The notes below the pieces were generated by a model, which was not told the DNA's origin, did not search any database, and saw nothing but the letters and a program-made list of their open reading frames with translations. A DNA stretch of 64,000 nucleotides from Leptospirales bacterium (GTDB taxonomy: Bacteria > Spirochaetota > Leptospiria > Leptospirales > Leptonemataceae): positions 210,348 through 274,347 of the forward strand of contig JAIBBN010000004.1 in NCBI GenBank assembly GCA_019694655.1, in the 5' to 3' direction. The position numbers and the translations under genes are program-made. This document shows, piece after piece, positions 41,607-45,215 of the stretch; position 1 is the first letter of the stretch; every line of letters starts with the position of its first letter.

Positions 41607-43238
41607 ATGGCTCACATCCGCCGCCGACTGCTGCAACTTAGCCAGGGACTCTCCCTGCTACTGCCCCTGATTCTGCATACGACCCTGGCTGCCCAGACGC
41701 AGCCGACTGCTCCGCCCGCGTCACAGCCTTCAGCCGAGGAGCGCATTGGAATCCTGGAAGAGGAGCTGGAAAAGTTGCGCCTTTCGCGAGCGACGCACAG
41801 CTACGAAAGCGTCGGCGGACTGGGACCGGCTGCCTCCAGCGCCTACACCAGCGGCGAAGGACTTTCGTGGGGCGGCTATGGCGAGGTGAAATACCGCAAC
41901 TACCGCTCCAACTACCGCAGCGACCAGACCGATCTGCATCGTTTCATTCTGTATGCCGGCTATCGCTTCAATGACTGGATTGTGCTCAATAGCGAGCTGG
42001 AGTACGAGCACGCCGGCTTCGAAGAAGAAACAGTTGTGACTGAAGTATCGACGGATTCAAGCGGCCTGGTAACTTCCAGCGAGAGCGAATCGATTGCCGC
42101 TTCAGAGGTCGCAGTGGAGTTTGCCTACCTTGATTTGCATTTTGCCGATGCCTTGCAATTGCAGGCCGGGCTCAATCTGGTTCCCTTCGGAATATATAAC
42201 TATCGTCATGAACCAACCACATTTCTGCCCGTAGAGCGCACTCGCACAGAGACGGACTTGATCCCTTCTACCTGGCGCGAGATCGGGCTCTTACTGCATG
42301 GCAATCTTGGAGATTTGCTGTACTACCGCGCCGGTATTGTCAACGGGCCGCGCGGTTCGAAGTTCAGCGACAGCACGTGGATTCGCAGCGGACGCAGCAA
42401 GGGATCGCAGGCGCGCGCCGAAGATTTTGCCTGGGTAGGACAGCTGGATTTGCACCTGGCCGAAGGCTTCAGTCTGGGTGCGGCGTATTACTCGGGCGAA
42501 GCCGACCAGGGAGAACTTGCCGCTGTAGATTGGAAAAGCAATCTCTATGATCCGCTGGCAGGGCTGAATGATTCCACCGGACTGCTTGCTGTGGCCAATC
42601 AGATCAAAGGCAATTTGCGCAAAGACGCACGTTTGCGCGTCCAGATGGCCGAAGGCCACCTGGAATTGGACCGCGGGCCGTGGCGCGGCCGGGCCCTTTA
42701 CACAGAGGGATGGCTCAATGAGGACGGCGTACGTGCAGTGAACAATGCAACGAACAAAAATATTGGCAAGCGCGTCTGGGGCGCCTACGGGGAGATCGGC
42801 TTCAACGTGCTGAGCCTGTTCGCTTCAGAGCAGAAACTTTATCCCTACCTCCGCTACGAGCGACTCAATACGCAATGGCAAACTGTGCAGCGCTATCCGG
42901 GCGGAGAGGAGGACCAGCTTGATCTCCTGTGTGCGACTGCACTTGGCGGAAGCTGTCCGGGCAATACGCGCAGCGCGGCGTTGAACCGGGCCCGCGGCAT
43001 TATCCAGAGCCGCGCCGCCGAGACCGAGGCCTACGGCGTTCAGGGTTTGGCCGATCGCGTCAACGACCAATCGATTGTGACCATGGGCCTGGCCTGGTAT
43101 CCCCATCCGAATGTAGTTATCAAAGCGGAGTATGAACAACATGAATCCGCAACCAGGCTGCATCGCGATATTGAGGGGCGCCGTCCTTCCAACAACAAGG
43201 TCGATCAGATCAATGTAGCCGTCGGTTTTATCTTCTAA
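41607..43238 (+). CDS. Outer-membrane porin-like protein (OprP/phosphate-selective-like beta-barrel)
   Basis: A 543-residue outer-membrane protein. After the signal peptide (hydrophobic L-S-L-L-L-P-L-I-L, cleaved near A-A-Q) there is a proline-rich stretch and a short coiled-coil (E-E-R-I-G-I-L-E-E-E-L-E-K-L). This is the trimer-stabilising arrangement of phosphate-selective porin relatives. The rest consists of alternating aromatic-ending strands (G-Y-G-E-V-K-Y-R, Y-A-G-Y-R-F-N-D-W) and it ends in G-F-I-F, the C-terminal aromatic recognised by the BAM machinery. The substrate is unknown. It overlaps the convergent membrane-protein gene by 11 bp. Confidence 0.87.
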   Translation: MAHIRRRLLQLSQGLSLLLPLILHTTLAAQTQPTAPPASQPSAEERIGILEEELEKLRLSRATHSYESVGGLGPAASSAYTSGEGLSWGGYGEVKYRNYRSNYRSDQTDLHRFILYAGYRFNDWIVLNSELEYEHAGFEEETVVTEVSTDSSGLVTSSESESIAASEVAVEFAYLDLHFADALQLQAGLNLVPFGIYNYRHEPTTFLPVERTRTETDLIPSTWREIGLLLHGNLGDLLYYRAGIVNGPRGSKFSDSTWIRSGRSKGSQARAEDFAWVGQLDLHLAEGFSLGAAYYSGEADQGELAAVDWKSNLYDPLAGLNDSTGLLAVANQIKGNLRKDARLRVQMAEGHLELDRGPWRGRALYTEGWLNEDGVRAVNNATNKNIGKRVWGAYGEIGFNVLSLFASEQKLYPYLRYERLNTQWQTVQRYPGGEEDQLDLLCATALGGSCPGNTRSAALNRARGIIQSRAAETEAYGVQGLADRVNDQSIVTMGLAWYPHPNVVIKAEYEQHESATRLHRDIEGRRPSNNKVDQINVAVGFIF

Positions 43239-43722
43239 TAGGCCGGGCGATTGTAAGCCGGATGGCGAGCCATCCGGCGGTAAAAAGCGAGCTTCCAAGG
43301 TAAAGTAGAACCGAAGCAAGACGAAAGCTGCCAGGCAGGTCCAGCGCTCTGGTCAGAAAAGGCGCCGCAAGTTCGATTGCGCATAGCGCATAGTAGACGC
43401 CAAGCCATGCGTCGACCAAGAAGGGCGGACCCTGGCAGCTGCTGCGCAGCAGGTGGCCCAGAACAAAGGCCGTAAGACCATAGACAAAAACATGTGCCAG
43501 ACCGAGTTTGAGAATGCCGTCGTAGGTCTTTGCCTGCAGATAGCGATCTGGAGTTCCGGGATAGCGTAGCATCGCCGCCTCCGAACCTGCATAGTAGGCA
43601 TAGGTTGTCGCGGGCGTATAGCCCTGGCGCAGGCCGTAAAGCGCCGCTGCGCTGACCAGCTGAATTAGAAAATAGAGCAAGAAAACGGCTACAATACTGC
43701 GCTGGCCAGATTGCTCGTTCAC
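43228..43722 (-). CDS. Four-helix membrane protein, possible heme-binding partner (third gene of flavin module)
   Basis: A 164-residue integral membrane protein with four hydrophobic helices (about 8-30, 68-95, 103-125 and 135-158). Between helices 1 and 2 there is a roughly 45-residue extracytoplasmic loop (Y-A-Y-Y-A-G-S-E-A-A and R-Y-P-G-T-P). Helix 2 has two histidines twelve residues apart in L-A-H-V-F-V-Y-G-L-T-A-F-V-L-G-H, suitable for heme ligation. The start is GTG 43722, overlapping the previous stop as GTGA. The same layout is seen in the upstream 165-residue neighbour, so the two may be paralogous subunits. I do not recognise the family. Confidence 0.65.
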   Translation of the reverse strand: MNEQSGQRSIVAVFLLYFLIQLVSAAALYGLRQGYTPATTYAYYAGSEAAMLRYPGTPDRYLQAKTYDGILKLGLAHVFVYGLTAFVLGHLLRSSCQGPPFLVDAWLGVYYALCAIELAAPFLTRALDLPGSFRLASVLLYLGSSLFTAGWLAIRLTIARPIRR

Positions 43723-44216
43723 TTCGCCGCCTTCCCGTCCGATCTGCGCCACAGTACGGCCAGCAGCGTTGCAATGGATGCCAGGTAGCACAGGTATAGC
43801 GCCGGCGCTGTGGCCAACGCTGCCCAGGCCAGATTGGCGTAGAGGTGCATCAGGTATCGAAAGCATTGATAAAGCAGCGGCGTTAGCGCGGCGGCGCAAA
43901 TCAGCGTACGCTTCCAGGCCGCGGGCAGCGGCAGCGCCTGTAAAGTCGAGGCAATCAGCAGGAATAGAAAAGAAAATAAGAATAGATCAATGTGCAGGTC
44001 TTGCAGGGCGGCGCTGCTTTCCGGCGAAGAAAAGTTGCGAGGCTGCCCATCCGGCGCGGCCAGCTCGGAGGCGACGCGCTCCGGGGAAAAGCTCCAGTAG
44101 GAGGCTTCGCGCAGCGCGTGAGCGCCCAGAAAACAAAGCGCAAAGAGCAGAGCGAAGCTGAGCAGCAGCCGCGGACCCTCCGCTCCCTGCAGCTTCCCTG
44201 TGGCCAGAAACTTCAC
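43719..44216 (-). CDS. Four-helix membrane protein, possible heme-binding partner (second gene of flavin module)
   Basis: A 165-residue membrane protein with four hydrophobic helices and the same plan as the downstream gene: helix 1, a polar loop of about 45 residues (P-E-R-V-A-S, then S-S-P-E-S-S-A-A-L-Q), then three helices. Histidines occur at the end of helix 1 (G-A-H-A-L), at the start of helix 2 (L-Q-D-L-H-I-D-L-F) and in helix 3 (Y-L-M-H-L-Y-A-N). GTG 44216 overlaps the FMN-protein stop as GTGA, and its own stop overlaps the next GTG the same way. Probably a transmembrane electron carrier, but this is inferred from context. Confidence 0.65.
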   Translation of the reverse strand: MKFLATGKLQGAEGPRLLLSFALLFALCFLGAHALREASYWSFSPERVASELAAPDGQPRNFSSPESSAALQDLHIDLFLFSFLFLLIASTLQALPLPAAWKRTLICAAALTPLLYQCFRYLMHLYANLAWAALATAPALYLCYLASIATLLAVLWRRSDGKAAK

Positions 44217-44764
44217 AGGCCATCTATCCCGCGGCTGCGCAGCAGATCATAAAGCCATAGGGCGCGACGGACAGCGCGCGCGCTGGCCGTGCTGGTCATC
44301 GTTGCGCCGGTGATGGCTGGCAAATCTGAGCCTGGCTGTAGCGAGTCGGCGCGCGTTCTGTTGCGAAAGAGATCGAGCCAGCGTTGCGGCGGCAAAAAAT
44401 CCGTTGGTTCAAAGAACGAGATGATGCGGACCTGCAGGATTCGGCCGCCCGGCGCGACGGCGATGCAAAGCGTCTGTTCTTTGGTTCGGACGCGGTGTGT
44501 ATCAAAGAAGGCGATGCCTTCGAGCCGACCCTGGCGCCGGGCCAGGTATGCCGTGAAAAAACGGCCGGCATCGCCGCCGCCCTGCATTGCCAGCTGAGAC
44601 TGTTCTGCCTCACTGAGATAAATGCTCTGGCGTTGCACTTCGCTTCCAGGAAAGACTTGTTCCAGAGCGCGCTCTGGCAGCAGGTAGACGCGAGCCGTAA
44701 CCGCTCCTGCCATCAATGCAGGCATAGTTACAGCCAGCGCGGCAACCAGGCGACGTCGGGGCAC
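44213..44764 (-). CDS. Exported FMN-binding domain protein with flavinylation motif
   Basis: A 183-residue protein with a short N-terminal hydrophobic anchor/signal (residues 6-25) and an FMN-binding domain (PF04205-like). The motif I-T-G-A-T-M-T-S (residues 151-158) fits the S/T-G-A-T-x-S/T sequence at which ApbE attaches FMN covalently in NqrC/RnfG-type proteins. The domain core V-R-I-I-S-F-F-E-P and Q-T-L-C-I-A-V-A is also typical. The start is GTG 44764. It is followed by two overlapping membrane-protein genes, making a candidate extracytoplasmic flavin transfer module. No Nqr/Rnf genes are near. Divergent from the glutaredoxin-like lipoprotein. Confidence 0.82.
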   Translation of the reverse strand: MPRRRLVAALAVTMPALMAGAVTARVYLLPERALEQVFPGSEVQRQSIYLSEAEQSQLAMQGGGDAGRFFTAYLARRQGRLEGIAFFDTHRVRTKEQTLCIAVAPGGRILQVRIISFFEPTDFLPPQRWLDLFRNRTRADSLQPGSDLPAITGATMTSTASARAVRRALWLYDLLRSRGIDGL

Positions 44765-44798: not shown

Positions 44799-45215
44799 AT
44801 GGAAATGAAACAAGTTGCGGCAGCGCTTTGCCTGTTTGTGGCGCTGGCATCCTGTCAGAGCGCAGCGGCCCGATTCAGCCGCGATAACCAGATTGATGTT
44901 TACGGACGCCATGGCTGCGGTTTCTGTCAGGAAATGGTGCGTAATCTTGAGCAGAGCGCGTTGGCCTACCGATTCTTTGACATCGACGAGAGTGAAAGTC
45001 GGCGCAGAGAGATGTGGCAGCTGGTTCGCCAGACCGACCCGACCGTAGAGAGCTTCCATCTGCCGGTCATGCGCGTCAATGGCGCGGTGCTGATCGGTCC
45101 GGAATGGTCGGCGGTGGAGGCGCTTCTGAAGCCGGCGCCCAGGCCGGCCACAGCGGAGCAGGCGGAAGAAGATGACTTTGATCCCGACTACAATGCCAAT
45201 CCAAACAGTCGATGA
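44799..45215 (+). CDS. Glutaredoxin-like lipoprotein with CGFC motif
   Basis: A 138-residue protein with lipobox L-A-S-C (Cys19). A thioredoxin/glutaredoxin-like domain runs from about residue 30: D-V-Y-G-R-H-G-C40-G-F-C43 is the redox pair, followed by F-D-I-D-E-S, the cis-proline strand L-P-V-M-R-V-N-G and an end helix. The last 25 residues are acidic. Expected in the periplasm attached to a membrane, where it could reduce or isomerise disulfides. It is divergent from the FMN gene with a 34-bp gap, so shared regulation is possible. Confidence 0.82.
   Translation: MEMKQVAAALCLFVALASCQSAAARFSRDNQIDVYGRHGCGFCQEMVRNLEQSALAYRFFDIDESESRRREMWQLVRQTDPTVESFHLPVMRVNGAVLIGPEWSAVEALLKPAPRPATAEQAEEDDFDPDYNANPNSR

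Follow-up and report, generated by a model that had tools for sequence, protein, structure and literature searches.

Electrons are known to reach flavoproteins outside the cytosol, flavinylated by ApbE, through several kinds of membrane carrier: NapH-like, MsrQ-like, PepSY-like, DsbD and Nqr/Rnf-like proteins have been described (PMC8238504), and DUF4405/FezC is also a carrier, FezC having been modelled to build its heme sites by homodimerisation (PMC11334425). The locus that we describe here lies in a stretch of 64,000 nucleotides from a Leptospirales bacterium (the window), and encodes an FMN-binding protein together with two small membrane proteins, which we call M1 and M2 (Table 1). The likeness to the MsrQ, PepSY, NapH, DsbD and Nqr/Rnf-like systems lies in the combination of a putative membrane electron carrier with an extracytosolic protein that ApbE would flavinylate (PMC8238504), but M1 and M2 match none of those membrane families. 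We propose that the trio is a flavinylation-based transmembrane electron path, in which electrons would pass from quinol through M1/M2 heme to the FMN protein and on to a periplasmic acceptor; we give this reading, which is drawn from sequence, a probability of about 0.62.

Table 1. The trio and its neighbors in the window
Feature	Position in window	Strand	Basis
FMN-binding protein, exported, 183 aa, GTG start	44213..44764	(-)	FMN_bind, RnfG profile match
M1, 4-helix membrane protein, 165 aa	43719..44216	(-)	helix prediction, alignment
M2, 4-helix membrane protein, 164 aa	43228..43722	(-)	helix prediction, alignment
Porin, OprO/P-like, N-terminal coiled coil	41607..43238	(+)	co-occurrence and adjacency
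Glutaredoxin-like lipoprotein, CGFC	44799..45215	(+)	Glutaredoxin, 33.8 bits

The three minus-strand genes are joined by two GTGA overlaps, at the FMN/M1 and M1/M2 junctions, just as the preliminary description had them. Our survey covered 296 Spirochaetota genomes, 22 of them Leptospiraceae MAGs of the window's own GTDB family and 274 others. The order FMN-M1-M2 was intact in 16 of the 22 same-family genomes, split in one (G190, with FMN-M1 on one contig and M2 beside a porin gene on another) and found at a contig edge in one (G199, where the porin gene is followed by an FMN gene cut by the contig end). A search with the M2 profile of the 274 genomes outside the family gave zero relatives. 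The arrangement is therefore not unique to its own genome: 16 other loci keep the order at 20-47% protein identity to the window proteins (FMN protein, 29-47%; M1, 22-32%; M2, 20-30%), so it is not due to chance. Since the flanking genes vary on both sides in the loci examined, several genera having a Mur-ligase-like gene upstream, the trio itself is the conserved unit. A search of public contigs with a subset of the alignment returned seven loci from spirochaete MAGs, their titles mostly naming Leptospiraceae, and relatives were not found in the plasmid collection that was searched. In G190 (L107 7514-8600, L029 8169-9359), M2 seems to continue in frame into a lipoprotein-like tail.

The flavin part of the system, as first described, is strongly supported. 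The FMN protein does have an N-terminal signal/anchor helix, an FMN_bind domain and the motif D-L-P-A-I-T-G-A-T-M-T, in agreement with the earlier claim of an exported FMN-domain protein carrying T-G-A-T-M-T. The domain score in the window protein is narrowly above the Pfam cut-off (24.3 versus 22 bits), and those of the other members fall above and below it; a profile built from 17 homologues finds RnfG in a solved Rnf complex with an E value of 4.6e-7, the GATMT region included. Across these 17 sequences, T157 of ITGATMT, the predicted ApbE flavinylation site, and G153 are invariant, and the motif can be written (S/T/A)-G-(A/S)-x-(L/M)-T, with the threonine in 17/17. The FMN_bind domain and the flavinylation threonine are common to this protein and RnfG/NqrC, but the protein of the trio is about 180 aa long, has a conserved segment of its own (FxEPxxYxPxxRWL) and comes without Rnf or Nqr partners.

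ApbE itself tends to accompany the trio. The search for apbE suggested in the preliminary description found a single ApbE in the window's own genome (217 bits; a hydrophobic segment lies at its N-terminus), and the window's FMN protein is the only FMN_bind protein there. In G172, two operon copies each read porin-FMN-M1-M2-ApbE, with ApbE directly after M2, and this genome has no ApbE genes beyond these two. G148 and G208, which belong to the genus of G172, lack the trio, ApbE, FMN_bind and the porin altogether. Over the family, ApbE is present in 15/17 trio genomes versus 1/5 others. From these patterns, the FMN protein is very probably flavinylated by ApbE. The trio would also explain the presence of an ApbE, otherwise an orphan, in Leptospiraceae genomes without Nqr and Rnf. 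In the window's own genome, no complete Nqr or Rnf complex was recognised that could partner the flavin protein. The only NqrB/RnfD-like protein of that genome was considered as a second ApbE client and rejected, its sequence being devoid of the flavinylation motif; a 295-aa RnfD-like membrane protein without this motif is encoded at L227 4085-4972 (contig C5) beside a larger exported-looking gene, and genes similar to it are present in G190 and G208.

M1 and M2 could instead export FAD for ApbE or mature the FMN protein, with no part in electron transfer. Their genes accompany that of a predicted ApbE substrate, joined in G172 by the ApbE gene, and an ECF transporter supplies extracytosolic flavin in Listeria (PMC9973259). 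We nevertheless regard this as highly unlikely: the invariant histidines described below suit heme better than flavin transport, and neither protein resembles a known transporter family in Pfam or NCBIfam.

Four helices are predicted in each of M1 and M2, with a loop of about 40 residues following helix 1, so the common plan first noticed for them holds; to call them histidine-rich was an overstatement, with three histidines in M1 and two in M2. The placement of histidines in or next to helices 1-3 was also too generous, because M1 H33 on helix 1 is histidine in 9/17 sequences and M1 H124 is not conserved. The only histidines invariant across 17 sequences are M1 H75, M2 H77 and M2 H90, all on helix 2, the latter two being spaced 13 residues apart. 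Judging from hydropathy and charge distribution, helix 2 would carry H75 and H77 at its periplasmic end, and H90 would sit close to the opposite, cytoplasmic end. Other invariant features are Y44-x-G-S of M2, in a predicted periplasmic loop, and the M1 N-terminus MxFxxxG...GP, predicted to be cytoplasmic.

As single proteins, M1 and M2 gave no family match in Pfam or NCBIfam, and sequence profiles of PDB entries gave nothing meaningful for either. When 17 M1 and 17 M2 members were compared with Pfam, the matches were to cytochrome b561 only, and weak; DUF4405, MsrQ, PepSY, NapH, DsbD and NqrB/RnfD did not appear. DUF4405, which had been a candidate family for M1/M2, was set aside on this result and on an hhalign Prob of 9.5 at best. 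The b561 family Ni_hydr_CYTB (PF01292) was matched by 5/17 M2 members with a best E value of 1.6e-4, all members scoring below the gathering cut-off of 30.1 bits (22.0 bits for the best). Helices 1-2 of M2 align to profile positions 103-165, corresponding to b561 helices 3-4. In hhalign against b561 proteins from the same phylum, M2 reached Prob 55 and E 1.2e-4, with H77 and H90 placed on two histidines of b561 helix 4; for two control families, unrelated membrane proteins encoded at these loci, Prob stayed below 1. These alignments make M2 a distant relative of b561 helices 3-4 and put its two invariant histidines at heme-ligand positions of that family. The remaining M2 helices and the whole of M1, however, have no counterpart in b561 (M1 matched no cytochrome family in Pfam or by hhalign), and the trio splits its membrane part over two proteins.

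M1 and M2 also resemble each other. Their profiles align with Prob 86 and E 5.5e-6, versus a median Prob of about 1 and a maximum of 36 for 20 reversed or block-shuffled controls; on this difference the two are likely paralogous, with the histidines two residues out of register in the alignment. In L043, M1 and M2 are in frame and separated by a TAG and six bases. AlphaFold2 modelling of this pair as one chain, with the stop read through, gave a confident, all-helical model with four long helices in each half (pLDDT 84.8, pTM 0.81; the remaining four of five models, 66-77). Foldseek found nothing significant for this model among solved structures, the best E value being 0.32 and the second, heme A synthase, 0.41. 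The idea of paralogous heme-bearing subunits is plausible: it gains from a profile similarity well above most shuffles and from the match of histidine on histidine between M2 and b561, but the latter stays below the Pfam cut-off. Neither a match of M1/M2 to a non-redox family, nor a lack of conserved histidines, nor a gene order confined to this genome was found, and we consider it probable that M1/M2 hold heme b.

The preliminary description listed partners without the porin or the ApbE linkage. The porin is encoded convergently with M2 in the window, their 3' ends overlapping by 11 bp, and our results support it far above the glutaredoxin that was suggested as a possible accessory. Orthologues of the porin occur in 17/17 trio genomes plus G199, and are absent from the other four genomes of the family, two of which are incomplete. 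Fisher's test of porin against trio gives P = 7e-4, falling to 1.4e-4 if G199 is taken as having the trio; related genomes are treated as independent here, so these values overstate the significance, and the within-genus loss in G148 and G208 is the most telling part of the co-occurrence. The porin gene also lies next to trio genes in five genera, at six loci in all, and in two arrangements: in the window, G190 and G164 it converges on M2, and in G199 and the two copies of G172 it is co-directional and immediately precedes FMN. It resembles the OprO/P type of porin (PF07396), the window porin scoring at E 0.017 and that of L023 at 20.3 bits, under a cut-off of 20.9 bits. Judged by this distribution, the porin is quite probably a true partner and a fourth component of the system. 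A second porin copy in G141 (L214 7716-10310) is apparently broken by an insertion with a transposase-like gene. In genus g5 (L210 6786-9928, L209, L211), a LytTR response regulator gene comes after an unlinked porin gene, and in L210 an ArsC/glutaredoxin-family gene lies upstream of the porin on the opposite strand.

Based on these findings, we propose the following scheme. M1 and M2 would form an inner-membrane heterodimer that holds heme b at its interface. One heme would be bound between M1 H75 and M2 H77, both at the end of helix 2 that faces the periplasm. M2 H90, on the cytoplasmic side, would either be a ligand of a second heme or act where quinol is oxidised; with three invariant histidines, no conserved partner ligand is left for such a heme. 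Electrons would be drawn from the quinol pool and pass via heme to the FMN on T157, the residue that ApbE would modify, and the FMN protein would hand them to a small periplasmic acceptor entering through the partner porin. Both the quinol donor and the direction of flow are what we infer. The proposed interface site has a parallel in FezC, whose modelled heme sites lie across a homodimer interface, and DUF4405/FezC proteins likewise are small, sit in the membrane, have links to flavinylation or iron and bind heme b by conserved histidines (PMC11334425). Unlike them, M1 and M2 are two different genes rather than one, and have three conserved histidines rather than four.

While the principle of such a path is established, the M1/M2 pair and the porin link are absent from the flavinylation surveys that we consulted; in one of them, PMC8238504, the word porin does not occur. 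Tentatively, and with somewhat less than even confidence, we suggest an undescribed class, in which a split heterodimeric heme b core feeds a flavoprotein served by a dedicated porin, the five-gene set linking the quinol pool to a substrate that crosses the outer membrane. If this is true, M1/M2 would add, to the handful of membrane systems that such surveys list as reducing extracytosolic flavoproteins, one that domain libraries do not recognise, and its heme site would be shared by a pair of small paralogs. That the trio is so strictly paired with the porin suggests that the substrate crosses the outer membrane by a dedicated pore, which would offer a concrete way to look for it.

Some hints at the substrate come from G172. 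One of its copies (L023 1843-10489, G172:C68) adjoins genes for imelysin, a di-haem oxidoreductase, a lipoprotein and an FTR1 permease, followed by ZrgA and an ABC transporter; this neighborhood is an iron/zinc uptake island. The other copy (L036 2501-16461, G172:C78) lies between two RND (AcrB-type) efflux operons. The first copy resembles the P19-FTR1 iron uptake clusters in having FMN_bind and FTR1 together (PMC8238504), but no P19 was seen, and FTR1 occurs in one genus only and is absent from the window's own genome. FTR1 was dropped as a general partner for its restriction to that genus, and an iron acceptor is weakly based for the same reason; ferric iron, reduced for assimilation, is our first guess at the periplasmic acceptor, though less likely than not.

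The same neighborhoods bear on another possibility, that M1/M2 are a permease for ferrous iron or another metal, with the histidines binding metal, the FMN protein reducing it before uptake and electrons arriving by another route. Besides the imelysin, ZrgA, FTR1 and RND genes near the G172 copies, flavinylation and iron transport often co-localise (PMC8238504), and Foldseek of M2 alone returned 4u9l/4u9n (a "membrane protein" entry) and MgtE at E values of 0.2-0.4. These matches are not significant, and because M2 alone was modelled poorly (pLDDT 73) we ignored them. As the profile similarity of M2 is to cytochrome b561, histidine on histidine, and as the flavin protein would otherwise be left without a recognised complete Nqr/Rnf partner in its own genome, we consider a permease unlikely.

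Electron flow from quinol to the periplasm remains our preferred reading. Sequence cannot reveal direction, and the path might start from a donor in the periplasm, such as Fe(II) or, through the glutaredoxin-like lipoprotein, a thiol, which would be oxidised with electrons passing to the quinone pool. The CGFC lipoprotein gene is indeed divergent from the FMN gene, at a distance of 34 bp, but a homologue occurs near trio genes in only one other genus (G190), and described flavinylated systems are mostly reductive (PMC8238504), making such a reverse flow quite unlikely. For want of linkage beyond that one genus, the accessory role first suggested for the lipoprotein is rejected, and it is probably a neighbor, not a component. 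In G190, it is syntenic with the porin, M2 and Rel, which suggests an old neighborhood rather than function.
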